64,000 nucleotides of DNA from Caldicellulosiruptor morganii (GCF_026810225.1 NZ_CP113865.1:721001-785000), one strand, 5' to 3'. Positions 3,075-64,000 are shown, numbered from the stretch's first letter. Translations and numbers: made by a program. The notes: generated by a model from the sequence alone, not told the origin.

Positions 3075-4234
3075 AAGATTATCACTTTTCGGCTACCCTG
3101 CCGCAGGATGCGAGAGATATAATGGAGAAGATATTGAAAGAGTGTGTGAGCCTTAAAACAGAGATGGTTTCAATTTACAATTCACAGGGCAGATTTGTGG
3201 CAAAAGATCATCTTTCTATCAATACATCACCTCCTGCCAGTGTTGCTGCAATGGATGGGTATGCAATAGAAGCTGAGCAGACTTTTGATGCAACCGATAC
3301 AAGTCCAAAAACAATTGAAAATTTTAAAGTTGTTCAAACAGGAGAGAGCATACAGGGATTCAATGCGGTTGTTCCATTCGAGGAAGCACAGATAGAAGGG
3401 CGAAGAATTAGGATTTTCCAGAGTTACTATCCGGGGCAGAATGTACGTTCAAAAGGTGAGGATGTTCAGAAAGATCAGATTCTTGTCAGAAAAGGTGATT
3501 TTTTGACCTTGTTTGACAGGGTGTATTTGAAAGCTGGTGGCTATCTTGAAGTTGAGGTTTACAGAATGCCAAAGGTTGCTTTCCTACCAACAGGTGAAGA
3601 ACTTGTGGACATAGTTGAAAAGGAAGGACAGCTTGTTGAGTTCAATTCTATCATCTTTAGCGATATTTTACAAAGATATGGTTTTGAGGTTTCTATTTTT
3701 AAACCTGTTGAAAACAATCTAGAAAAACTAACAGAAAAAATAAAAGAGCTTTTACCAAGTTTTGATATCATTTTTGTAAATGCGGGTTCATCCAAGGGTG
3801 ACAGGGACCTGACAGCTGATGCTATATCAGCTCTGGGACAGGTGCTTGTCCACGGTATAGCTATAAAACCCGGCAAGCCAACAATCATAGGGAAAGTGGA
3901 GAATAAGCCTGTTATAGGTCTTCCGGGCTTTCCTGTTTCAATGTTTTTTGTATTGAAGGAAGTTTTTTTGAGGTCATTTTTCAAGGCGTTCGGTTTGAAT
4001 CCAAAAGAAAAAAGTGTATTTGCAATTCTTGAAAGGAGACTCTCATCCGACATAGGCTCTGAAGAGTATGTGAGAGTTAGCATTGAAAACACAGATGGTA
4101 GGAATGTCGCTAAGGTTTTGAAAAGAGGGGCAAGTGTGATATCAAGCTTGAAAAGGGCAGATGGATATATCACAGTGCCTGTCAATGTGGACATGCTGGA
4201 GGCAGGTAGCATAGTTGAGGTGAAACTTATTTGA
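3071..4234 (+). CDS. moeA: Molybdopterin molybdenumtransferase MoeA (second copy)
   Basis: This is a second 387-residue MoeA, clearly diverged from its neighbour. It retains SVAAMDGYAIEAEQTF near residues 55-70, FLPTGEELV in place of ISTGDEI, VNAGSSKGDRD in place of ISGGSSAG, and the paired KPGKPTI and GLPGFPVS motifs. The loss of the usual TGDE serine/threonine context and the divergence in the first domain suggest a specialised partner, possibly for tungsten as against molybdenum. The sequence alone does not decide this. It is translationally coupled to the first copy through ATGA and lies 14 bases before moaA. Confidence 0.88.
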   Translation: MKDYHFSATLPQDARDIMEKILKECVSLKTEMVSIYNSQGRFVAKDHLSINTSPPASVAAMDGYAIEAEQTFDATDTSPKTIENFKVVQTGESIQGFNAVVPFEEAQIEGRRIRIFQSYYPGQNVRSKGEDVQKDQILVRKGDFLTLFDRVYLKAGGYLEVEVYRMPKVAFLPTGEELVDIVEKEGQLVEFNSIIFSDILQRYGFEVSIFKPVENNLEKLTEKIKELLPSFDIIFVNAGSSKGDRDLTADAISALGQVLVHGIAIKPGKPTIIGKVENKPVIGLPGFPVSMFFVLKEVFLRSFFKAFGLNPKEKSVFAILERRLSSDIGSEEYVRVSIENTDGRNVAKVLKRGASVISSLKRADGYITVPVNVDMLEAGSIVEVKLI

Positions 4235-4248
4235 AAAGGTGATGGTAA

Positions 4249-5175
4249 ATGTATGATGGGTTTTTTAGAAAGATTGAATACCTGAGACTTTCAATAACAG
4301 ACAGGTGCAACTTCTTTTGCAGATACTGCAGGGAAAAAAACGCATGCAAACTTGAGAGCAAAGAGCTTTCAAAAGATGAGATTTTTAAAATTATTTCGGT
4401 ATTTAAAAAACTTGGTATAAAAAAGCTGAGACTTACAGGCGGTGAACCATTTTTAAGAGATGATATATTTGAAATTATAGAGTATGCCAGTAGCATTGGC
4501 ATAAAAAATATAAATGTTACAACAAACGGATATTTGGATGATGAGAAAATTGCAAAGATTTTAAAAAGCAGTCTTTTATCAATTAATATTTCACTTGATA
4601 CTCTGAACAATCAAAGATACAGAGTTTTAACTGGGTTGGATGTACTTGACAAAGTGAAAAGTGCCATAAAAAGCCTTTCAGAATACAAGAAGGTAAAGAT
4701 TAACACCGTTTTGCTCAGGTCAACAAACTTTGATGAGATTGAAGATTTAATATTATTTGCCAAAGAGAACAATGCTATCATTAGATTCATCGAGCTTATG
4801 CCAATAGGTGTTGCAAACAGAATTTTTGATAATGAATTTGTAAGCATTGAGGAGGTTTTAAAAAGGTTTAGGAAGTATTACGAGGTAGATGTTAATAGAA
4901 ATTCTGTTGCAAAGTACTACTATATTGAAGATTTTGATCACGTTGCTGGGTTTATAAATGCTGTTTCAGGGCATTTTTGCGAAAGATGTGACAGGGTAAG
5001 GGTCTCGGCTGAAGGAATTCTTTACAACTGTTTGTTTGATAAAACAGGACTTGATTTAAAAGAGTATTTAACCGATGAGGATGTTTTGGAAGAGAAAGTC
5101 CAAGAATTCATTAAAAAGAAAAAGTTTACAAGAAATCAATCAACAGATTCAATGATGTTCAGAATAGGAGGTTGA
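4249..5175 (+). CDS. moaA: GTP 3',8-cyclase MoaA
   Basis: This radical SAM enzyme carries out the first step of pterin cofactor synthesis, converting GTP to the 8-cyclo intermediate used by MoaC. The N-terminal cluster motif is C20-x3-C24-x2-C27 within ITDRCNFFCRYC, followed by RLTGGEPFLR. The second cluster is formed by CERCDRVRVSAEG and a downstream cysteine in LYNCLFD. The protein is 308 residues, slightly short, and the C-terminal GG motif is present in altered form (MFRIGG). The start is ATG at 4249, preceded by AAAAGGTGATGG. The gene lies in the same operon, 4 bases before the moaC fusion. Confidence 0.93.
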   Translation: MYDGFFRKIEYLRLSITDRCNFFCRYCREKNACKLESKELSKDEIFKIISVFKKLGIKKLRLTGGEPFLRDDIFEIIEYASSIGIKNINVTTNGYLDDEKIAKILKSSLLSINISLDTLNNQRYRVLTGLDVLDKVKSAIKSLSEYKKVKINTVLLRSTNFDEIEDLILFAKENNAIIRFIELMPIGVANRIFDNEFVSIEEVLKRFRKYYEVDVNRNSVAKYYYIEDFDHVAGFINAVSGHFCERCDRVRVSAEGILYNCLFDKTGLDLKEYLTDEDVLEEKVQEFIKKKKFTRNQSTDSMMFRIGG

Positions 5176-37184: not shown

Positions 37185-37403
37185 TTGATTATAAACTTTC
37201 ATACGTTAAGACACACATATACAACAAGGCTTTTAGAAGCAAATGAGCATCCTAAGGTTGTACAAGAGCTTTTAGGGCATAGAGACATCTCAACAACTCT
37301 AAATATCTATTCCCATGTTATGCCGGAAATAAAGAAGGCTGCTGCAATGAAGTTGAACAATTTATTTGAGGATGTAATAAAGACAAAGGGTAATCACTCC
37401 TAA
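37185..37403 (+). pseudogene. 3' remnant of a tyrosine recombinase/integrase
   Basis: Only the last ~70 codons of a phage-type integrase remain. They carry the catalytic block FHTLRHT (H6, R9), LGHRD (H32) and the tyrosine in LNIYSHV (Y42), then [14 protein letters not shown]. No start, arm-binding or core domain is present, and the frame begins four bases after the preceding metallo-hydrolase stop. It lies just outside the left att repeat of the integrated element, with its 3' end facing the att site as expected for a true integrase. It is probably left from an earlier element in the same tRNA gene. Confidence 0.8.
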
Positions 37404-37513: not shown

Positions 37514-37561
37514 TGGCACGCCCGGGGGGAGTCGAACCCCCGACCACAGGATTCGAAGTCC
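37514..37561 (-). repeat. Left attachment repeat: displaced 3' end of tRNA-Arg
   Basis: These 48 bases are identical to 45591-45638, which form the 3' half of the intact tRNA-Arg gene from CCA through the T arm to the anticodon loop. Identity stops exactly here, where the copy runs into unrelated AT-rich DNA. The pair of repeats marks the two junctions of an element that integrated by recombination within the tRNA gene. Confidence 0.92.
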
Positions 37562-38490
37562 AAAAATGTAAGCATTTTACACAAAACTCAGTTAACAAGC
37601 CATATCCACCAATACGCTTTAAAAATTTACCACTGGACTTTTTGGACTATTGCTTATGAATTACAAAGTCCATTGGTTAGTAAATAATATAGTAACAAAA
37701 AAAGTAATTAGTCAATACCAATTTTTTGTTCGCTATATATGTAAACAATTTTGCAATTAGAGAATACAACCCAAAATTTATGCTTTATAGATTTTTCTTC
37801 CTTTTGTTTTTAAGAAGCCTCTACAATGAACAAAAAATAGTTTGGGAATATAAAAATATTACCTTGCCTTTTAGATGTGGCTTATAAGCAACGGTATAAA
37901 AGGAAATGCTGATAAACTTTGGATAAGACACTTTGTATTTTGCAAGCTTTTTGATTTGACAAAAAATCAAGATAAAAAGCAATTAGACAACAATTTTCTG
38001 TTAGCAGAAGTTTGCAAGGACCTCGCAATTTGCGATTCCCTTATGCATTGTAAATGAAATTGCAACTATAAATGTTAGCATTTATTAGCATTGTCATTTT
38101 AGATAGAGAGAATCAGCTTTTTCACCACGTTTTTGATTTTGCTTTTGTAACTGCTGCCATACTTTTGGACCATTGAAAGATGTGAAAGACACAAAACAAA
38201 GTAGTCTTTTTCAATTGGATAGGACAATACATCCCATCCTAATTTGTTTTTTTAAAATTGCTTTTGACCAAAGAATCGGTGACCGGAATTGAATTCCGCC
38301 CATCAATTTGTTTTTTTTAAAAATTGCTTTGACCCCCCTCGCGTGTTTACTTGTCGCAGGTTTTTGGAGGTGGACCCGCCGGTCTTTGGCTGGGTTCTCT
38401 AAATTCAAGGTAGGGGGATATATTCTTTTACTGCTACACCTAATTACTCGAAAAATACTATAATTAAAGAGTAGCTTATTATTACATTTT
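37562..38490. other. Gene-poor left arm of the element
   Basis: This 930-base AT-rich arm has no convincing gene. It contains an imperfect inverted repeat at 37629-37641/37665-37677 (12 of 13 paired). It also has a near-identical direct repeat of about 29 bases at 38241-38269 and 38305-38334, with a palindrome (CGGAATT/AATTCCG, 38284-38298) between them, and then a small GC-rich patch at 38330-38400. These could be excision, replication or transfer sites, but none is identified. Confidence 0.5.
38241..38334. repeat. Direct repeats flanking a palindrome in the element's left arm
   Basis: Two copies of an AATTTG-T(7/8)-AAAATTGCTTTTGACC type sequence occur at 38241-38269 and 38305-38334, differing only by small length changes. 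Between them is a 7-bp-armed palindrome (38284-38290 with 38292-38298). The arrangement is reminiscent of a protein-binding origin or nick region. This is inference only. Confidence 0.5.
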
Positions 38491-39228
38491 TTATATGTCT
38501 TCAGAAGTACTTAACCCATCCCACGGATAAAATTCTTCTCCACAATCACTACAAAGCCAGCCTTCCCATTCATCGCTGCTATACCACCTAAAAGTTTGAC
38601 CGCAGCGTGCACATAATCTGTTAGGAATAAGATTCCCCATTCCTAAGGTTACACGATTTGACCATTCAATTATGTCATTCTCGATTGATACATAGGCTAT
38701 AAAATGAACTTGTCCTGATTCTTTTAAACATGGCAAACAAACAAAACCTTTTTGATTCCCATTTTCAGCAAACACAAAATCTTTACTGCCACATACAGGG
38801 CATTTTGCATTTAGGGAAGATTGCAGTTTCTCAATTTCCCATTCTCTTTGTCCGCATTTTGCAAACATCGTGAAAAGTTTTAGTGTGTTCTCGTCAGGAT
38901 GTTTTTTGTTAAACTCTTGCGAAAGCCTTTCAATCATAGCCCAGAAATGACCTTCTTTGCTGCAAAGCTGCTTTTCATAAGCCTTCTTTTTTAGCTTTGC
39001 AAAGTAGGAAGGCTTTTGCTGGGCAGCAAGTTCTCTTATCTCAAGTTCAGTCATAAGTCTTATTGTGTGGTTTACTTGCTTACTGCCTTTAGTTATCTGG
39101 TTGACTTGGTTTACATAGTCTGCTTGTTTTTGAGAAGCTGCTGCCAGCGATGTTACGGCAGCAACACCAACATTACATTCAGGTTTTTTAGTATCTTCAA
39201 TTAGGGAAAGCCATTCCCATGGATGCAT
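38491..39228 (-). CDS. Hypothetical protein with two C-terminal zinc ribbons
   Basis: I do not recognise a named family. From the ATG at 39228 the protein has 245 residues, with a helical, lysine/glutamine-rich first half (ELEIRELAAQQKPSYFAKLK). Two cysteine pairs form likely zinc ribbons: CPVCGSKDF...CLPC and CARCGQTF...CSDCGEEF. Nucleic-acid or protein binding is plausible. The ATG at 39228 is preferred because GAGGTG precedes it. An ORF start at 39384 would add 52 residues across a 24-base perfect palindrome. Downstream of rep and iterons, it may be a replication or regulatory accessory. Confidence 0.6.
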   Translation of the reverse strand: MHPWEWLSLIEDTKKPECNVGVAAVTSLAAASQKQADYVNQVNQITKGSKQVNHTIRLMTELEIRELAAQQKPSYFAKLKKKAYEKQLCSKEGHFWAMIERLSQEFNKKHPDENTLKLFTMFAKCGQREWEIEKLQSSLNAKCPVCGSKDFVFAENGNQKGFVCLPCLKESGQVHFIAYVSIENDIIEWSNRVTLGMGNLIPNRLCARCGQTFRWYSSDEWEGWLCSDCGEEFYPWDGLSTSEDI

Positions 39229-39249
39229 ATATAACACCTCGCTTGTAGT

Positions 39250-39277
39250 TTTATGCAACTGGGGAAATTTGCATAAA
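39250..39277. repeat. Inverted repeat TTTATGCAA upstream of the zinc-ribbon gene
   Basis: TTTATGCAA (39250-39258) is mirrored by TTGCATAAA (39269-39277). The same nonamer recurs at 39511-39519 and a shorter TTTATGCA at 39533-39540. Recurrence of the motif on both sides of the iterons suggests a protein-binding box in the replication region. Confidence 0.5.
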
Positions 39278-39300
39278 TACAAAATCACTTTTTCTCTATT

Positions 39301-39324
39301 AGAGAGAGTTATATAACTCTCTCT
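39301..39324. repeat. Perfect 24-base palindrome
   Basis: AGAGAGAGTTAT is followed by its exact reverse complement ATAACTCTCTCT. TTTTTAT follows on the plus strand. It lies just upstream of the preferred start of the zinc-ribbon gene and could be an operator or a terminator of plus-strand transcription. Confidence 0.6.
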
Positions 39325-39400
39325 TTTTATTTTAATTTTAATTTTACCCGATTTTATGCCTGCAAACTCTTGTCCTATCTGCATTTACCATTTTCTTCCC

Positions 39401-39469
39401 TGCGATTTTTTGCAGGTATATACTGCGATTTTTCATAGGTATATACTGCGATTTTCTGTAGGTACATAC
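39401..39469. repeat. Three tandem 23-bp iterons, candidate replication origin
   Basis: Three head-to-tail 23-base units start at 39401, 39424 and 39447. Each begins TGCGATTTT and ends AGGTAYATAC, with a variable three- to four-base middle. A fourth, degenerate start (TGCAATTTT) begins at 39470. They lie 51 bases past the stop of the Rep-like gene. Iterons next to an initiator gene are the usual plan of theta-replicating plasmids and of phage-satellite origins. Confidence 0.75.
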
Positions 39470-39519
39470 TGCAATTTTCCCAGCTGATTCCAGCCATGTT
39501 TTAGAGTAATTTTATGCAA

Positions 39520-40320
39520 TTATTTATGTATATTTATGCATATAACGTCCTTGTCTATTTTGTAGTTTATCAAACCCATACTTTCAAGTTTTATAAGTGC
39601 ATTTATAACTTTTTCCTTGCCTTCATCTAAAGGCAGTTCTGGACAAATATCATTTCCTACAAACTGGGCAAAGTTTCGTTTGTAGGTCTTGTTGCGTGTG
39701 CATTTTCCCATTAAGAAGTTATAAATTCTATGTGCTATCTTATATTTAATAAGCTGCTTTGCGATGTCCAAATTACCACGTGCAACATATCCGTTGTCAA
39801 GGTTGTTACAAATCTCTTTGGCAATTGTAACAGTAAGCTTTGTTTTGTAGCCACGACCTTTGCTGCCTTTCTGTGATACTCTGTAGGAAGGCAAAAGTGT
39901 AAACTTTGCTAAGTCTCTTCTAAATGTCTTGTTGTTGATAAAACCGTATCTTTCAACGACAATTTTCGTCATCATTAAGCGGTCAAGAGATTGCAAAACC
40001 AATTTTACGTTTTCTGAAGATGTCACATCCAAACCACGCTTTTCCATGATGTACTTTATTGGTATCTCAAAAGTATCTCCTCTCAAACCTGTTTCCTGCC
40101 TATAGGTGGTCAGGATGTAAAGTGTATTAATATCTGCAGGTGTCAGCATATAGTAGTTTGTCCCAATTTGAACTTTGCCACCGTCGTTTGTTTCGTACTC
40201 GTAAACAAACTTGCATTCTTTACCCTGTCGTGGTTGTATGCTATCCTCTAATAGGGAAAATATGTTAATAGGCAGGTTTGCGTCTGTGATATAAAAATTT
40301 TCGCTGCATTGATTATTCAT
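39520..40320 (-). CDS. Rep-like plasmid/island replication initiator
   Basis: This 266-residue basic protein has a winged-helix-rich composition. The central part (YYMLTPADINTLYILTTYRQETG, FEIPIKYIMEKRGLDVTSSE, VLQSLDRLMMTKIVVERYGF) and the C-terminal AHRIYNFLMGKCTRNKTYKRNFAQF...LIKLESMGLINYKI look like two tandem winged helices, as in RepA/Rep_3/TrfA-type initiators. The iterons immediately downstream and the primase-helicase gene immediately upstream support an initiator role. No HUH or rolling-circle motifs are seen. The exact family is not assigned. ATG at 40320 follows TAGGAGG on the minus strand. Confidence 0.65.
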   Translation of the reverse strand: MNNQCSENFYITDANLPINIFSLLEDSIQPRQGKECKFVYEYETNDGGKVQIGTNYYMLTPADINTLYILTTYRQETGLRGDTFEIPIKYIMEKRGLDVTSSENVKLVLQSLDRLMMTKIVVERYGFINNKTFRRDLAKFTLLPSYRVSQKGSKGRGYKTKLTVTIAKEICNNLDNGYVARGNLDIAKQLIKYKIAHRIYNFLMGKCTRNKTYKRNFAQFVGNDICPELPLDEGKEKVINALIKLESMGLINYKIDKDVICINIHK

Positions 40321-40358
40321 CGCAAAATACCTCCTAACTGTAGATTTTGTTTTTTAAT

Positions 40359-40389
40359 GCCGCCCTGTCGATTACTGCTACAAGGCAGC
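40359..40389 (-). other. Intergenic RNA hairpin with G-U pairs between primase-helicase and rep
   Basis: On the minus strand GCTGCCTTG (40389-40381) pairs with CAGGGCGGC (40367-40359) using two G-U wobbles. The same positions would be A-C mismatches on the plus strand, so the structure fits minus-strand RNA. No U run follows, so it is not an ordinary terminator. A similar hairpin occurs at 42344-42373. Confidence 0.55.
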
Positions 40390-40397
40390 GTTTATGA

Positions 40398-42227
40398 CTA
40401 TAAGCTGTTATCTTTGCTGTCTATTTCTTCAAATAAGTAAATTCCACCCCAAAATCTCATTGTGATGTCATCTCCAATGCTGCCATATCTGTTTTTGACA
40501 CATTTAAATGTAATTGTGTAGCCATTTCCTTTGTAGTAATCATGAACCACACGGTCATCGTCTCTTTGCATTAAGAATGCTGCAGCCGTGCCATATTCAA
40601 TTGAACCTGATTCTTTGAAGGCTGTCATATCGTCTTTGTCATAGTTTTCACGGTTCAAGCTACTAATTGCTACAACCGGTATTAGGAATCGGTTTTTGAT
40701 TTCAAATAATTCCTGCATTATCAGGTCTACACGCTGCTTATCGCTTTGATATGGTTTTGCTGGTTGTAGAAGCTGCAAGTAATCAATAAACAGAATAGGC
40801 TTTTGCAGGTGGTCAAGTGTGTAGGGTATATCATCAAGTTTTTGTTGTTCTATAATATGCAGTCTAAACGCATACTTTTTGACATAGTCTTGTACAACAT
40901 TCATGTAATCTTGCATTTCTTCACTGCTTGCAGATTTGGTCCTGAGTTTGCGGTAAAAATCGAAAGCTGGTACTTTGACATTTGCCTTTTTTAGCCCATA
41001 TTCACGACAAAATATTCTGGTCAGAATCTCTTCTTTTGGCATTTCTGCAGATAGGAAAACACAATCATAGCCTTGCTGCAAAAAGTTATCCATAAGCTGT
41101 AGCAAAAAGGTTGTTTTACCTACACTGGGCTTTGCACCAAAGACATACAGGTTACCTGCAACAAGTCCACCGTTTAACACTTTATCAAGGTTCTTAAAGC
41201 CAGTAGGGATTGATTCAAATCTTTCCGATTTGATAAAGTCCTCGTAACTGGGTAGCATGCTGATAAGTGCATATGGGTAAAACGATGTTTTTAACTGCCA
41301 TTGTAGGAATTTTATGCAGTCTTCAGGATTAGCAAGCCAAAACTCGTTAATGTCTTTGTAGGGGATATCTCTATCCCAATTGCACAAAGCAACCTTGTAT
41401 TCTGTTTTTAGCTTATCAAAAAGCTGTTTTGCTGCTTTTTGTCCTGCCTCGTTTTCGTCATTGTCAAACAAGATGTAGAATTTTTTGTTTTTAGGTTTAA
41501 TTTTATTTAATGCTTGCAAAAAATTGCTTTGATTGTTGCAGCTATTCAAAGCAATTGCTGGTTGCCCTAAAGCTGCTTCAATTGTTAGTGCGTCAAAAAT
41601 GCCTTCAGTGATAAATACACTGGTTTGTTGTTCGTCTTTGAGAATATCTAAATTAAAAGGCATACCATTAAAGCCTTTAGGAAAATCGTATTTGTGTTCT
41701 GTTTCCCCTATGTTGCGACGTGTCCAGCATATCACTTTGCCATCTTGAACAATAGGGAAGACAACAGCGTTTGCTTCAATGTCAAAGCCAACTCTGTACT
41801 TTTCAATAAAGGAATCGGGGATTCCTCTACTTGCAAAATAACTCTTTGCTAAACTTGAATTAACTTGACATCTTTCGACATATGTTATAATCTGTTCAAC
41901 AGGTTCTTGTTGTTTTTGTAAATTGTTTTCTGATTTTTTATCATCAACAGAAATGCCTATTTCTTTAGCAAGCATTTCTACCGCCTCCTTAAACTCTAAA
42001 CTGTGATATTTCATCGCAAATGTAATTACATCGCCCTTGTTATCACAACCGAAACATTTGAAAAACTGTTCACTGGGTTTGATATAGAATGACGGGTTCT
42101 TATCAGGATGAAATGGACACACAGCTTTGTAGCTGCTGCCTTCTTTTTGCAATGTCAGGTATCGTCCTATATAGTCAACAATGTCTACCTTGCTTTTGAT
42201 TTCTTTGACAATCTCTTCTAATTGCAT
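40398..42227 (-). CDS. Primase-helicase fusion (CHC2 zinc finger, Toprim, DnaB-like RecA domain)
   Basis: This 609-residue replication enzyme combines priming and unwinding. Residues 1-95 are a CHC2 primase zinc-binding domain (CPFHPDKNPSFYIKPSEQFFKCFGC). Toprim follows at about 205-285 (FITEGIFDALTIEAAL, FYILFDNDENEAGQKAA). From about 345 comes a DnaB-like helicase core with Walker A GAKPSVGKTT, FLSAEMPKEEI, Walker B ILFIDYLQLLQ and AISSLNRENYDKDD. A separate AEP or DnaG catalytic core is short or absent, so priming activity needs proof. The plan resembles T7 gp4-type and satellite Pri proteins. The ATG at 42227 follows GGAGG on the minus strand. Confidence 0.85.
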   Translation of the reverse strand: MQLEEIVKEIKSKVDIVDYIGRYLTLQKEGSSYKAVCPFHPDKNPSFYIKPSEQFFKCFGCDNKGDVITFAMKYHSLEFKEAVEMLAKEIGISVDDKKSENNLQKQQEPVEQIITYVERCQVNSSLAKSYFASRGIPDSFIEKYRVGFDIEANAVVFPIVQDGKVICWTRRNIGETEHKYDFPKGFNGMPFNLDILKDEQQTSVFITEGIFDALTIEAALGQPAIALNSCNNQSNFLQALNKIKPKNKKFYILFDNDENEAGQKAAKQLFDKLKTEYKVALCNWDRDIPYKDINEFWLANPEDCIKFLQWQLKTSFYPYALISMLPSYEDFIKSERFESIPTGFKNLDKVLNGGLVAGNLYVFGAKPSVGKTTFLLQLMDNFLQQGYDCVFLSAEMPKEEILTRIFCREYGLKKANVKVPAFDFYRKLRTKSASSEEMQDYMNVVQDYVKKYAFRLHIIEQQKLDDIPYTLDHLQKPILFIDYLQLLQPAKPYQSDKQRVDLIMQELFEIKNRFLIPVVAISSLNRENYDKDDMTAFKESGSIEYGTAAAFLMQRDDDRVVHDYYKGNGYTITFKCVKNRYGSIGDDITMRFWGGIYLFEEIDSKDNSL

Positions 42228-42258
42228 TGCAAACGCCTCCTAATTGGTTTTGTTCAGT

Positions 42259-42346
42259 GACTTTCTAAATTAAAAAGCCTGTAGAAGGTATCCTTAACTT
42301 GCGGATACCTTGGGTTTTGTTTGATGACTTTCTACATTAGAAAGCC
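42259..42346 (-). repeat. Repeated 21-base motif flanking a hairpin, between primase-helicase and small gene
   Basis: GACTTTCTA-x-ATTA-x-AAAGCC occurs at 42259-42279 and 42326-42346. The second copy is itself a palindrome (CTTTCTA/TAGAAAG). Between them AAGGTATCC (42285-42293) pairs perfectly with GGATACCTT (42303-42311). The cluster lies in an otherwise empty leader upstream of the primase-helicase gene. Confidence 0.55.
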
Positions 42347-42373
42347 ACCCTACCGATGACCGAATAGGGCAGC
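42344..42373 (-). other. Second intergenic G-U hairpin, like the one at 40359
   Basis: On the minus strand GCTGCCCTA (42373-42365) pairs with TAGGGTGGC (42352-42344) using two wobble pairs. On the plus strand these would be A-C mismatches. Both hairpins are preceded by AAACGCTGCC and follow the stop of a minus-strand gene, so this is a repeated RNA element. Confidence 0.55.
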
Positions 42374-42385
42374 GTTTTTGTTTGT

Positions 42386-42712
42386 TTATGAAGCAGCTTC
42401 AACTTTAGTGAAATATTTCAGCGGCAAATAATATTGTTCAGTGGAATTGCCAAACACACGCAGGATAGCTTTTTCAACAAACTTGTCAAAGTCGATTTCA
42501 AAAACGTTACCTGTATTAATTTCTTCTATCCGAATTAATTTACAACCCTTTTCTTTAAGTGCTTCAATGACACACTTTTCTATCCCATATGCGTTTAAGA
42601 CAAGTAGTTTGCTGTGTGTTGAGACTGCTTTGTAAAAGATTTTTGTTTTTGTATTGAAGTGCCCAGCAGTAACTTCTCGTCCTAAATTTTTGTTGTATAC
42701 TTTAAAAATCAT
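42386..42712 (-). CDS. Hypothetical protein, 108 aa
   Basis: I do not recognise this small protein. It is 108 residues, mixed alpha/beta by composition, and begins MIFKVYNKNLGREVTAGHF. It has no membrane segment, cysteine cluster or clear helix-turn-helix. It lies between the XRE repressor and the primase-helicase on the same strand and is likely part of the replication operon. The ATG at 42712 has a GGAGGG-type site upstream on the minus strand. Early accessory genes at this place in satellites and plasmids often modulate replication, but that is only positional inference. Confidence 0.6.
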   Translation of the reverse strand: MIFKVYNKNLGREVTAGHFNTKTKIFYKAVSTHSKLLVLNAYGIEKCVIEALKEKGCKLIRIEEINTGNVFEIDFDKFVEKAILRVFGNSTEQYYLPLKYFTKVEAAS

Positions 42713-42775
42713 GATAAACCCTCCTTCTGTTTTGAAGATTATTTAAAATTTCAGAAAACTTTTGACTTTTAGTTA

Positions 42776-42784
42776 TGCTATAAT
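42776..42784 (+). promoter_or_regulatory. Extended -10 promoter of a candidate plus-strand small RNA
   Basis: TGCTATAAT is a perfect extended -10 (TGn then TATAAT at 42779-42784). A TTGACT at 42762 is too close to serve as a standard -35, but extended -10 promoters tolerate weak -35 boxes. It points to the right, into a stretch with no protein gene, ending at a strong terminator about 60 bases on. Confidence 0.55.
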
Positions 42785-42790
42785 CAAAAT

Positions 42791-42845
42791 CAAAAGGGAA
42801 ATTGATTTTTGCTTTGTTTAGGTGGTTGTAAAACCACCTTTTTTT
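42791..42845 (+). ncRNA. Candidate ~55-nt small RNA opposite the replication operon
   Basis: A plus-strand transcript from the extended -10 at 42776 would begin near 42791 and stop at 42845. The first stem, AAAATCAA (42786-42793) with TTGATTTT (42802-42809), would need a start a few bases earlier to form fully; its loop is AAGGGAAA. A terminator hairpin follows at 42820-42839. No matching ORF exists. A short two-hairpin RNA transcribed against a replication operon is the layout of copy-number control RNAs, but this is unproven. Confidence 0.45.
42820..42845 (+). terminator. Strong plus-strand terminator in the element
   Basis: AGGTGGTT (42820-42827) pairs with AACCACCT (42832-42839) across a four-base loop, with seven T residues following. 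Orientation is plus, although all nearby genes on its left are minus. It overlaps the last codon of the XRE gene. Confidence 0.8.
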
Positions 42846-43065
42846 ATGCTATTTCGCTGTTCACCTCCTTTAGTGTCCCATCGGGCTTTGCTATCTCCTC
42901 GACGGGTACCTCAAAATATGCTGCCAGGGATTGCAGCAACTTTGGATAAGGCTTTCGCCATCCCCTTTCAATTTGACTAATCAAATTTGGATTAATACCT
43001 ACTGCAAGACCAAGCTTACTTTGTGAAAGTCCCTTTTGCTTCCTCAAATATTCCAGTTTTGTCAT
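42844..43065 (-). CDS. XRE-family helix-turn-helix regulator
   Basis: This 73-residue protein consists almost solely of a Cro/CI-type helix-turn-helix (LEYLRKQKGLSQSKLGLAVGINPNLISQIERGWRKPYPKLLQSLAAYF, residues about 4-51). It has a short tail and no dimerisation or peptidase domain. It is likely the element's repressor, controlling the divergent 413-residue gene and its own operon. The gap to that gene holds tandem AAAGTCATTTT repeats, a possible operator. ATG at 43065 is preceded by GGGAGG on the minus strand. Confidence 0.88.
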   Translation of the reverse strand: MTKLEYLRKQKGLSQSKLGLAVGINPNLISQIERGWRKPYPKLLQSLAAYFEVPVEEIAKPDGTLKEVNSEIA

Positions 43066-43093
43066 TTTAATATACCTCCCTGAGTCGTTATTA

Positions 43094-43122
43094 TTGACAA
43101 TCTTTACCTTTTAGTTTAAAGT
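43094..43122 (+). promoter_or_regulatory. Promoter of the divergent 413-residue gene
   Basis: TTGACA (43094-43099) is followed after 17 bases by TAAAGT (43117-43122). It points toward the gene at 43212. It overlaps the leader of the XRE gene, so repressor binding here could affect both directions. Confidence 0.55.
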
Positions 43123-43149
43123 TATTATTAGTGAATTTCAATATCTTTA

Positions 43150-43171
43150 AAAGTCATTTTAAAGTCATTTT
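43150..43171. promoter_or_regulatory. Tandem 11-bp repeats, possible repressor operator
   Basis: AAAGTCATTTT occurs twice head to tail (43150-43160, 43161-43171) between the divergent XRE repressor and the 413-residue gene. The 11-base spacing places the two copies on the same DNA face. The operator role is inferred from position. Confidence 0.45.
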
Positions 43172-43211
43172 GAAGGAAAATTAGAAAAGAAGAAAGGATG
43201 ATAATATTCAT

Positions 43212-44453
43212 ATGGACAGAGTTTATAATTGTGTTTCTTATGTATGTTCTGAAGGTTATGAATGGGAAGAAAGAGGATTAGAAATAGACGATATGTTAAT
43301 CTCATTATATTTTAAAGGTATATCATGGAGTTTTAATGAAAAATATGGTATAGGCTTTTCAGGTAAAATTGGAAAAACTATTAATTGGTATTTTGGTTCT
43401 ACCCAAGAAGTAAAAATAAATTATCCTGTATTACTTGCAAAGTCAGATAAAACTTTAGTATTAAATATATGGCAACAATATCCTTCACTTTATAAAAAAT
43501 TTGCTAATTTACAACCTACAAAAAATAATATTCTCCAGTTCGCAAATTCTTTCGGCAATATCAAAGATTATTATTTTCACAAAAATGTCATAAGTAAAAA
43601 TGGTGTCAAATCTTACAGTGTCGACAATATCTTTATTGGCTGTTCTTATGAAGAATGGAGAAAAGAAATTTTTGAAATGTTTGAAAACGTAAAGCTTTTA
43701 GAAATAATTCAAAGATTTGAGGAATTTGACCTTGACGATATAGTGCATATAGGTGAAGATTTAATAACTATATGGCTTCCTATTGAAGCCTTGCCTAAAT
43801 GGGTTTACCCTTGTGAATCAGATAAAATGTTCGATGAAAAGACACAAAATTTGCTACAAAATATTCTTTCTCAAAGTGAAGGCAAATACCTTGAGATTGT
43901 CTGGTCCCACAAAGGTAATTATCGTATAGAAACTATTAGAAAATCTTCTATTCAGCAAATTTTTGAAGATAATGTAAAGCCTGATTTTTATTTTAGTCCA
44001 GAAGGGAAATTGCAAATTTTAAAATACACTTTAATGAAACGTATAAACAAGAAAATAACAAATAATGTAACGTTGCGAAATTTAATAAATCCTCAAACAG
44101 GTGAAATAGATGAATTTATATTCTCAGATAATTTACTAACCACTATGTATTTGCAACTTAATAATGACTTTTTGAAAAAAAGAAATATAAAACGTTGTTT
44201 ATATTGTGGAGAATATTTTACACCTGTTAAAGAAAATCAGTATTATTGTCCTGAAGAAGCGGAAATAATAATTCAAGAAAAAAACAAGTTTATAAGAAAA
44301 ATTGTACCTACAGGTAAGCATTGTAAAAATTATGATTATACTAAAAATAAGCCAAAGATTATAGATATGTATAAAAAAGGTATGACGATAGAAGAAATAT
44401 CCACTTTAACAGGTAGACCAATTGAACAAATCAAAAGATGGGTAAAAAGATAA
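43212..44453 (+). CDS. Hypothetical AT-rich cargo protein with C-terminal zinc finger and HTH
   Basis: I do not recognise the first 300 residues. The protein has 413 residues in total and no membrane segment or signal peptide. The late segment LINPQTGEIDEFIFSDNLL is followed by a cysteine cluster (RCLYCGEYFTPVKENQYYC, later a further cysteine in GKHCKNY). The C-terminus is a short homeodomain-like helix-turn-helix (KIIDMYKKGMTIEEISTLTGR). The architecture recalls unknown-domain plus CGNR-type zinc-finger regulators. It is clearly richer in A/T and in Lys/Ile/Asn than host genes. Lying alone on the plus strand opposite the repressor, it is the main candidate cargo gene of the element. Confidence 0.65.
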   Translation: MDRVYNCVSYVCSEGYEWEERGLEIDDMLISLYFKGISWSFNEKYGIGFSGKIGKTINWYFGSTQEVKINYPVLLAKSDKTLVLNIWQQYPSLYKKFANLQPTKNNILQFANSFGNIKDYYFHKNVISKNGVKSYSVDNIFIGCSYEEWRKEIFEMFENVKLLEIIQRFEEFDLDDIVHIGEDLITIWLPIEALPKWVYPCESDKMFDEKTQNLLQNILSQSEGKYLEIVWSHKGNYRIETIRKSSIQQIFEDNVKPDFYFSPEGKLQILKYTLMKRINKKITNNVTLRNLINPQTGEIDEFIFSDNLLTTMYLQLNNDFLKKRNIKRCLYCGEYFTPVKENQYYCPEEAEIIIQEKNKFIRKIVPTGKHCKNYDYTKNKPKIIDMYKKGMTIEEISTLTGRPIEQIKRWVKR

Positions 44454-44485
44454 AGCCTTGTCCTAACAGGTAGGGCAAGGCTTTT
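44453..44485. terminator. Terminator between cargo gene and integrase
   Basis: AAGCCTTGTCCT (44453-44464) pairs with AGGGCAAGGCTT (44472-44483) with one wobble and a loop of seven, followed by a T run. It separates the convergent cargo and integrase genes. Confidence 0.8.
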
Positions 44486-44492
44486 TGTAAAC

Positions 44493-45422
44493 TTATTTCA
44501 ATTTGTTTTTGACTCTTTTTGTTTGTTGCAATAATATATTTAAAGGTGAAGCTGCATTGTTTATCTCTCGCAGGTCGTTTTGCGTGAAGTGGACATACCG
44601 CTTGGTCATCTCCAACGTGGTATGTCCCAATGTCCTTTGCAAGCTTAGTTCATAGCCGCCGTTCTTGAGATAAAGCAAAGCAAATGTGTGTCGCAAATCG
44701 TACGGTCGTATTTTGACGCCAAGCTTTTTGCTATACATCTGCATTCTTTCGTGCCATATGTCACGTGTAAGTGGACGACCTGTTACTGTACAAAACACCG
44801 GTACTCTTTCATTCCATTCTGGGTGTCTTGCTGCAATTAATCTTTTAATTGCATTTGCTGTAACTGGTAGGATAGGCAGTACTCTTGCCACTCTTGTTTT
44901 AGCCACATCACTTGGAATGTAAACTTGCAGCGTTTTAAAGTCAAAGTGTTCAATAAGAAGAGAAAATGCTTCTTTTGGTCTTATTCCCGTATCCAATGTA
45001 AGCAAAATCAATGCATAATCACGCAAACCGCAAAATGTGTTTTTGTCTGGCAATTGCAAAAGCCTTTCTAAAGTCTCTTTATCAATGTTGACAATTCGAC
45101 CCTCGGCTTTCTTTTTGGGAATCCCTTCTAAAGGATTTGAATTAAGAATGCTTTCCTCGACACACCATTTAAAGAAAGCCTTCAAATATGACAATCTCAG
45201 GTTGTAGGTTGCAGGTTTAATTGGCTGCGAAAGATATTCGAACAAGTTCTTTTTAAGTTGCTTTTCATCGTGAAAGCAATTAGGATAAAGTGTAAAAAAG
45301 TGTGTTATGTGATACTCATAATCTTTAAGTGTCAATTCACTTCTGCCCTCTGCACGCTTGTAAAACAAAAATTGCTGCATTGCCTCTTGCCAGTCAACTT
45401 TAACAAAGCTTCTTTTAGGCAT
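44493..45422 (-). CDS. int: Tyrosine recombinase (element integrase)
   Basis: This 309-residue site-specific recombinase has an N-terminal SAM-like core-binding domain (about residues 10-90: EAMQQFLFYKRAEGRSELTL..., YLKAFFKWCVEESIL). The catalytic domain has R148 in DTGIRPKEA, the YDLRHTF box (R244, H245; tyrosine replaces the first histidine, as in many Firmicute integrases), H267 in LGHTT and the nucleophile Y277 in KRYVHF. The gene lies about 170 bases from the att site in tRNA-Arg, so it should integrate and excise this element. The ATG at 45422 has GAGGTGG upstream. No excisionase is evident. Confidence 0.92.
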   Translation of the reverse strand: MPKRSFVKVDWQEAMQQFLFYKRAEGRSELTLKDYEYHITHFFTLYPNCFHDEKQLKKNLFEYLSQPIKPATYNLRLSYLKAFFKWCVEESILNSNPLEGIPKKKAEGRIVNIDKETLERLLQLPDKNTFCGLRDYALILLTLDTGIRPKEAFSLLIEHFDFKTLQVYIPSDVAKTRVARVLPILPVTANAIKRLIAARHPEWNERVPVFCTVTGRPLTRDIWHERMQMYSKKLGVKIRPYDLRHTFALLYLKNGGYELSLQRTLGHTTLEMTKRYVHFTQNDLREINNAASPLNILLQQTKRVKNKLK

Positions 45423-45495
45423 AATAAAACCACCTCTCGCATTTTTTTATTGCGATTGGTGGCTATGGCTTGTTACTTGTAATCGTGCAAAATAA

Positions 45496-45531
45496 CAAAA
45501 TCCTGTGGCACATAAACACCAAAGGATTTTG
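45496..45531. repeat. Inverted repeat in the att region next to int
   Basis: CAAAATCCT (45496-45504) pairs perfectly with AGGATTTTG (45523-45531). It lies between the integrase gene and the right att repeat, where integrase or excisionase sites are expected. TTTTT follows on the plus strand, so a terminator role is also possible. Confidence 0.5.
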
Positions 45532-45590
45532 AGTTTTTAAACCCGGTTTCCAGTTTTTGCTGCCACGTTCAAGCCTTGATATTTCTCATT

Positions 45591-45638
45591 TGGCACGCCC
45601 GGGGGGAGTCGAACCCCCGACCACAGGATTCGAAGTCC
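45591..45638 (-). repeat. Right attachment repeat within tRNA-Arg
   Basis: These 48 bases are identical to 37514-37561. Here they form the functional 3' half of the tRNA gene, so integration restored an intact tRNA. Confidence 0.92.
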
Positions 45639-45666
45639 TACGCTCTATCCTCTGAGCTACGGGCGC
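45591..45666 (-). tRNA. tRNA-Arg (anticodon TCG)
   Basis: Read on the minus strand the gene folds as acceptor GCGCCCG/CGGGCGT (one G-U pair), D arm GCTC...GAGC, anticodon loop CTTCGAA with anticodon TCG, T arm GGGGG-TTCGACT-CCCCC, discriminator G and an encoded CCA. It decodes CGA, and other CGN codons by wobble. Its 3' half is also the recombination site of the adjacent element. Confidence 0.95.
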
Positions 45667-63099: not shown

Positions 63100-64000
63100 T
63101 TATGCACTACAAACTGCAGTTTTATTAAAGTATTTTTGAATATGTTCTTCTGGAGTTCTAAGTTCAAAAGGTTTTTTATCGCGCATAACAGCAAAGATAA
63201 TACAAATAATTTTTCTCATAACAGCACCTAATGCAACTTTTTTGGGCTTTTGTTGGCACTTTTTCTGATAGTATTCGAATAATACAGGATTACAAGGTTT
63301 AGAATTTCTTTTTGTTCTGATATTGGCAAGAGCAATTGTAAATAAGATTCTTCGCAAGATTTTAGAACCACGTTTAGACATTTTATTTTTTGTGCCAACA
63401 AATTGCCCCGATTGATTTACGGAAGGATCTACACCAAAGAAAGCAACAAGCTTGTTGGGTTTTGAAAATTTTTCGAAATCACCTATTTCAGCAAGGATAG
63501 TTGCAGCGGATAGAAAACCTATGCCGGGGATAGATTGAAGGAGGTTAATATTTTCCATGAGTGAAGGCTGAGATTGCGAAGATTGCTGAACAAGTTGATT
63601 TATGGCTTCAAAAATTTTGTCGATATTCTGCTGTAAATTCAGGACCATGTTAATATAGACTTTAAGCATAGTAACAGTTGCTAAGTCTGATATAGAAAAA
63701 GGTTGAAACTGTTTAGCTTTTGCGACAAGTAATTCATATTTTTCTTTGGCCCATTGATAGCTTTTTTTAGAGGTTAGCTGAATGATGGAAATAAGTTTTT
63801 CGCTGTCAGCGCCTAAGATATCGGTTGGAGTTGGGTAGTTTTCAAGTATAGCCAAGGATGTTTTAGAACAAATGTCAGGGAAGACCTCTTTGAAATTGAG
63901 CATAATTTGATCGACGACAGAAGTAAGTCTGTATTTGTAAGAGGTTAGTTCATCACTGAGGTTGTAATACTGGCGGCATAGGTTTTTCAAGCAGTCGAGG
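63100..64000 (-). CDS. IS110-family transposase, 5' end outside window
   Basis: This is the C-terminal part of an IS110-type recombinase, open to the right edge. The first visible in-frame residues before the TTG at 63990 are LDC. The Transposase_20 region is clear: INLLQSIPGIGFLSAATILAEIGDFEKFSKPNKLVAFFGVDPSVNQSGQF, then KMSKRGSKILRRILFTIA and the serine-bearing segment typical of the family. The N-terminal DEDD RuvC-like domain lies mostly off the window. The left end of the IS is not located. It lies beside a damaged permease gene, which may be a consequence of its insertion. Confidence 0.9.
   Translation of the reverse strand, partial: LDCLKNLCRQYYNLSDELTSYKYRLTSVVDQIMLNFKEVFPDICSKTSLAILENYPTPTDILGADSEKLISIIQLTSKKSYQWAKEKYELLVAKAKQFQPFSISDLATVTMLKVYINMVLNLQQNIDKIFEAINQLVQQSSQSQPSLMENINLLQSIPGIGFLSAATILAEIGDFEKFSKPNKLVAFFGVDPSVNQSGQFVGTKNKMSKRGSKILRRILFTIALANIRTKRNSKPCNPVLFEYYQKKCQQKPKKVALGAVMRKIICIIFAVMRDKKPFELRTPEEHIQKYFNKTAVCSA

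Follow-up and report, generated by a model that had tools for sequence, protein, structure and literature searches.

Gene content and boundaries of the element

The DNA analysed here is a 64,000-nt window of the Caldicellulosiruptor morganii genome, a section of a 2.475-Mb contig, and all coordinates refer to this whole window. Its 37514-45638 region is occupied by an integrated element of 8.08 kb. A repeat search of the window delimited it by exact 48-bp repeats lying 8077 bp apart. The right copy makes up the 3' portion of a complete tRNA-Arg(TCG), and the left one belongs to a cut-off tRNA. Seven open reading frames (ORFs) of note were found between the repeats, coding for an integrase, a 413-aa protein on the plus strand, an XRE regulator, a 108-aa protein, a primase-helicase, a 266-aa Rep and a 297-aa zinc-ribbon protein. 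A first-pass annotation made from the sequence alone had reported the repeats, the integrase, the divergent XRE/413-aa pair, the primase-helicase fusion and a Rep-like protein with iterons, and all of these were recovered in our searches. The 108-aa and zinc-ribbon ORFs, a degenerate left end of 0.93 kb and an integrase remnant outside the left repeat are added here. The parts of the intact element are:

37514-37561: left attachment site (attL), a 48-bp copy of the tRNA-Arg 3' end in a cut-off tRNA copy; exact repeat
38491-39384, minus strand: zinc-ribbon protein, 297 aa, last intact gene; weak zinc-ribbon matches, ratio of nonsynonymous to synonymous substitution rates (dN/dS) 0.15-0.24
39400-39478: three 23-bp iterons just after rep, probable origin; repeat search, kept in relatives
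39520-40320, minus strand: Rep initiator, 266 aa (REP266), predicted winged-helix protein, RctB/RepE-like; AlphaFold and Foldseek
40398-42227, minus strand: CHC2-Toprim primase fused to a DnaB-like helicase, 609 aa; PF01807 1e-33, PF03796 6e-32
42386-42712, minus strand: conserved 108-aa ORF at the xis position; 79-89% in four relatives
42844-43065, minus strand: XRE regulator, 73 aa, first gene of the replication operon; PF01381 7e-12
43212-44453, plus strand: divergent 413-aa ORF with a C-terminal Cys motif and a helix-turn-helix (HTH); position, divergence and weak HTH matches
44493-45422, minus strand: tyrosine integrase, 309 aa; PF00589 1.1e-24
45591-45638: right attachment site (attR), 48-bp repeat within the intact tRNA-Arg; exact repeat
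45591-45666, minus strand: tRNA-Arg(TCG), the integration target; ARAGORN and Rfam

The matches listed in a primase-helicase scan of the genome contigs may not include all distant relatives. The core genes are full length, with dN/dS values of 0.03-0.24 where estimable, several comparisons being saturated at synonymous sites, and these values indicate that the core is under purifying selection. For instance, the integrase is 89% identical to those of two relatives at the same tRNA (L036 and L037; dN/dS 0.03-0.04), while the primase-helicase, a fusion of CHC2, Toprim and DnaB_C domains, shows 73-78% identity in relatives (dN/dS 0.05-0.09) and the XRE regulator has dN/dS of 0.06-0.11. The 108-aa ORF had no family match in the family profile searches. 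The same searches found no relaxase, capsid or terminase between the repeats, as the first-pass annotation had stated, so that the relaxase characteristic of an integrative conjugative or mobilizable element is lacking. The possession of an integrase with a specific attachment site and the lack of phage structural or lytic genes are both traits of phage-inducible chromosomal islands (PICIs). A search for a LexA-like box found none.

For Rep, the AlphaFold model is of moderate quality (mean predicted local distance difference test score, pLDDT, 59.5), and its top Foldseek matches were RctB domains 2-3 (3e-7) and RepE. RctB and RepE are replication initiators that bind iterons. REP266 homologues were sought in 398 genomes sampled from the phylum, in viral contigs (with two degenerate patterns) and in 72,556 plasmids, and none turned up beyond the genus. 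The iteron cores are near-uniform within each element and differ between elements by concerted changes: mostly CGCAG in the window and L036, CGTAG in L034, and CATAG in L035 and L037. In L038, whose Rep is only ~33% identical, a different repeat occurs. Over the six loci available, these changes fit Rep-iteron coevolution.

The 413-aa protein is proposed to be a master repressor of the Stl/Rpr type, as it occupies the place of the PICI repressor. Its counterparts in the relatives share only 21-58% identity, as is to be expected should every copy respond to a phage protein of its own. The AlphaFold model of this ORF (pLDDT 40) was too poor and no fold was assigned.

The first-pass annotation had recommended looking in related genomes for an unoccupied site, and this was found in part. 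Two loci (L039 in G011 and L048 in G008) retain the same left gene and the tRNA-Arg with its right flank and are free of the element; neither is clean, since the place of the element is taken in L039 by 2.4 kb with an unrelated 252-aa ORF and in L048 by ~0.6 kb with an integrase scrap. The tRNA-Arg(TCG) site is an insertion hotspot. PICIs occupy attachment sites that prophages do not use. Here, an integrase remnant 91% like the integrase of the G010 prophage sits beside this tRNA-Arg(TCG) site; the site of that prophage itself is tRNA-Thr(CGT), not tRNA-Arg(TCG), and tRNA-Thr(CGT) is also used by islands L063 and L065.

Related islands and the terminase-sigma cassette

Five other loci with the same core were found in the genus, in answer to the suggestion that other copies be sought. 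They occupy three tRNA types: tRNA-Arg(TCG) (L036 and L037), tRNA-Leu(TAG) (L035 and L038) and tRNA-Trp(CCA) (L034). Attachment repeats measure 48 bp in L036, 97 bp in L037, 60 bp in L038 and 49 bp in L034; none was found in L035 when looked for, and relatives with both repeats span ~7.9-10.1 kb. Beyond the core, L035 contains ORFs similar to one at the right edge of the window (63100-63990). Integrase identity to the window follows the site, at 89% for Arg, 67-69% for Leu and 43-45% for Trp. At one flanking gene the window host is 93-95% identical to G003, G004, G008 and G011 and 88% to G010, although the integrase of the element is nearest to those of G007 and G010; these pairwise identities fit horizontal movement.

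In three of the five relatives (L034, L036 and L037), the zinc-ribbon ORF is followed by a TerS-like ORF of 157-171 aa and a protein of 303-314 aa with sigma-70 region 2; L038 lacks both genes, and none was identified in L035. The family scores of the TerS-like ORFs are modest (L037: phrog_1206 7e-8 and phrog_51 1e-4; L034: phrog_1206 7e-6), and the L036 copy matches neither family. However, homologues with 41-46% identity occur in viral contigs (L086, L088 and L090-L093) and in the G010 prophage (L055, also L087), and directly after them stands an ORF of 400-430 aa that contains a Walker-type motif, GS(V)RSGKT or a related one. Two of these ORFs scored as the large terminase TerL (phrog_2; L055 1.5e-56, L086 4e-51). 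By its place before TerL in phages, the ORF of the relatives is identified as the small terminase TerS. No TerL or capsid gene follows TerS in the islands. TerS homologues were detected in 10 of 13 genomes, strong TerL matches only in the prophages of G010 and G006. The former has its own sigma factor upstream (phrog_351 4e-85), together with major-head and tape-measure genes. This apparently full prophage (L055/L056), at tRNA-Thr(CGT), is of a candidate helper type. The sigma-like protein of the islands has no relative in the viral contigs, and in phages only partial matches of ~27-45% were obtained.

The window element has, by sequence comparison, lost this cassette. Its left 0.93 kb, adjoining the left repeat, is degenerate and without a convincing gene, and retains only scraps of the cassette, listed here with the other features of this end:

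37185-37403, plus strand: leftover of a different element's integrase, beyond the left repeat; 93% identical over 72 aa to the integrase of the class-C island L066
37808-37909: block B3, what remains of the DNA that followed the sigma gene; 75-86% to L036, L050 and L051
38117-38210, minus strand: last 94 bp left of the missing sigma gene, from its 3' end; 93% to L049/L066 (same genome), 75% to the core relative L036
38271-38304: protospacer; 38-nt spacer of G003, 34 nt aligned with 33 identical
38328-38422: block B2, conserved GC-rich segment otherwise found in islands of the TerS-sigma type

Since the sigma gene end resembles L049/L066 (93%) more than L036 (75%), the missing cassette probably belonged to the type of another island, as far as 94 bp can tell. 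The pieces are out of order relative to the relatives, B2 standing before the sigma end. The integrase remnant outside the left repeat is only 30% identical to the element's own integrase and is the trace of another island that once neighboured it at this tRNA-Arg.

Block B2 (38328-38422; 7610-7725 in L053) can pair CCCCCC with GGGGGG, and five genomes of the genus contain its core with no more than one mismatch: G000, which is that of the window, G002, G003, G004 and G011. It is a candidate pac site, origin or RNA alike. A structured RNA is not claimed: a hairpin folds but without covariation, and Rfam contained no match to B2. Above gathering scores, Rfam returned only tRNAs and one pan motif (L053, L058 and L036); in the window it gave the tRNA and two sub-threshold matches on the tRNA/attachment repeats. 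About 1.4 kb downstream of the sigma gene (7413-8950 in L053, and equivalents) is conserved among otherwise different islands, again without a convincing gene.

The TerS-sigma pair was also found with three other replication modules: in Prim-Pol/DUF3987 islands (L053 and L059), in CHC2/DUF927 islands (L066, L060 and L054) and in Prim-Pol/AAA replicons, namely a plasmid and L058 (25% identity over part). Three further islands (L063, L064 and L065) are disrupted or are missing one gene of the pair or the two together. The plasmid is NC_012036.1, which we take to be the one called pATHE01; contig C2 of G002 is 100% identical to it. This 8.3-kb C. bescii plasmid (L051) bears TerS and sigma homologues in its 3117-4658 region, its TerS being annotated as a hypothetical protein. 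Over 1537 bp that include the sigma gene's end and the DNA following it, the plasmid and the chromosomal island L053 are 99.9% identical, which points to recent exchange. We tentatively raise the possibility that TerS, the sigma-like protein and the ~1.4 kb of downstream DNA form a portable packaging cassette that makes satellites of unrelated replicons, both islands and a free plasmid, and that members without it would use the TerS of co-resident islands or of a helper.

The record of clustered regularly interspaced short palindromic repeats (CRISPR) was analysed with 863 spacers from six arrays, counting matches over at least 80% of spacer length. Beside the protospacer in the element, matches were obtained to the G010 prophage (12, three of them perfect), the G006 prophage (3), pATHE01 (38/38) and the sigma gene of class-C islands (86.8%); reversed spacers, used as control, gave 0 matches. 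It follows that hosts of this genus have been invaded by both the phage and the islands, or by something closely related to them. The arrays of G002 and G003 contain the perfect spacers against the G010 prophage. A CRISPR region of ~148 repeats is present in the genome of the window itself (L120, G000:C1:2306001-2326000), and one of its spacers matches the G006 prophage at 86%. Two 36-nt matches in G006 and G007 were discarded as spacers because they are not in arrays.

Satellite, plasmid or remnant

The element is probably a PICI-like phage satellite whose own packaging cassette has been lost; its phage dependence and packaging are what we infer from relatives with the same core that carry a stand-alone TerS and a sigma-like gene. 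Also in favour are the attachment repeats together with sites free of the element, the PICI-like gene order, the cassette scraps in the window, purifying selection on the core and the CRISPR spacers that match prophage, pATHE01, class-C islands and the element. In the proposed cycle, the integrase would insert and excise the element at tRNA-Arg(TCG), and the 413-aa protein, divergent from the XRE/replication operon, would keep it silent until a phage protein relieved the repression, by analogy with Stl/Rpr in the Staphylococcus aureus pathogenicity islands (SaPIs). Rep would bind the three iterons and load the primase-helicase for copying of the circle. In the relatives, the lone TerS should direct the helper phage TerL to satellite DNA and the sigma-like protein probably helps late transcription. 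The window copy has lost both genes by rearrangement, and to move it would need a TerS, supplied either by the helper phage or by one of the two further islands that its genome contains, or else generalised transduction.

Several observations weigh against this interpretation. The window element has no terS and no cos or pac site was identified in it; its induction by phage is presumed from likeness to PICIs. No TerL-bearing prophage was found by TerL search in the window's own genome, so that any helper would need to arrive from elsewhere. L038 lacks TerS and lies in a genome without any TerS match, hence the core may persist without packaging genes. Finally, the integrase is transcribed towards the 413-aa ORF and not in its direction, unlike in PICIs.

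The first-pass annotation left the choice between a satellite and an integrative plasmid; the cassette of the relatives shifts it to a satellite, but pATHE01, with the same cassette, keeps the two from separating cleanly. The main rival is an integrative plasmid, an integrase-bearing iteron replicon that needs no phage for its copying or spread, with TerS and sigma as accessory genes of its relatives. The RctB/RepE-like Rep with its iterons, the intact core of TerS-less members in two site classes (the window and L038) and the plasmid-borne cassette would all suit it. We nevertheless regard it as rather unlikely, as no relaxase or segregation gene was recognised and it would have no known transfer route of its own, as Rep is unmatched in the plasmid collection, and as three of the five other core relatives bear a stand-alone TerS within a PICI-like core order. 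Loss of TerS and the disordered left end could instead mean that the island is dead and no longer moves, which is unlikely given the full-length core ORFs and the identical attachment repeats; the low dN/dS speaks against long decay, not against recent death. As a dead island is compatible with a satellite origin, the likelihoods given here overlap. A decayed prophage, with structural genes deleted and those for integration and replication left, would explain the degenerate left end with its cassette fragments. This is very improbable, because the same core without structural genes recurs at five other loci and three tRNA types, with attachment repeats in four, because the core is under purifying selection, and because the best matches of the primase-helicase in phage records are at most 30% identical.

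If the satellite interpretation is correct, phage satellites extend to the extremely thermophilic Caldicellulosiruptor, for which none was described in the literature searched, most subscription journals lying outside it, and the recurrent tRNA islands of the genus are explained. Such islands, including a known plasmid, appear to be widespread in the genus and unrecognised so far. The interpretation would also recast pATHE01 as a possible satellite, despite the statement that PICIs lack a plasmid state (PMC6092414). Two questions would become testable: whether unrelated replicons exchange a single packaging cassette, and whether an island that has lost it can live on those of others.

Comparison with known systems

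The order of integrase, divergent pair, 108-aa ORF, primase-helicase, rep and iterons is the layout of Gram-positive PICIs (PMC6092414), in which divergent regulators, with int on the side and in the direction of the repressor, are followed by xis, pri, rep, origin and sometimes terS. The likeness noted in the first-pass annotation therefore holds, save for integrase direction and repressor type. What it designated a candidate undescribed system is not an isolated one, given the relatives and this known gene order with some differences; the probable satellite family was not previously recognised, as far as the literature was searched.

With Gram-positive PICIs and SaPIs (PMC6092414) the element shares attachment repeats, int, divergent regulators, pri and rep followed by an iteron origin, the lack of structural genes and, in its relatives, an optional terS in the same direction. 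It differs from them in having a 413-aa Zn/HTH protein and not a recognised Stl at the repressor position, a primase fused to a DnaB-like helicase with a separate RctB/RepE-like Rep, and relatives that add a sigma-like gene after terS, this copy being without terS. At 8.08 kb it is smaller than the typical ~12-15 kb of PICIs, a typical value and not a strict limit. E. coli PICIs have two iteron sets around an AT-rich stretch (PMC6092414), whereas one set of three was seen at the predicted origin of the element. Some PICIs are packaged without terS by carrying pac or cos (PMC6092414), and small satellites can live without terS (PMC10803314). By description, the element is comparable to the Vibrio phage-inducible chromosomal minimalist islands (PICMIs; PMC10803314), which are very small, contain integration and replication genes without terS and leave packaging to the helper; unlike the element, they use AlpA and insert next to fis.

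Among plasmids, pATHE01 shares with the element blocks B2 and B3, and with its relatives the TerS and sigma homologues, but is a free plasmid with a Prim-Pol/AAA replication protein and no integrase found. Iteron plasmids with RepE/RctB-type initiators resemble the element in their winged-helix initiator and 23-bp iterons, in contrast to which the element is integrated and has an integrase and its own primase-helicase.

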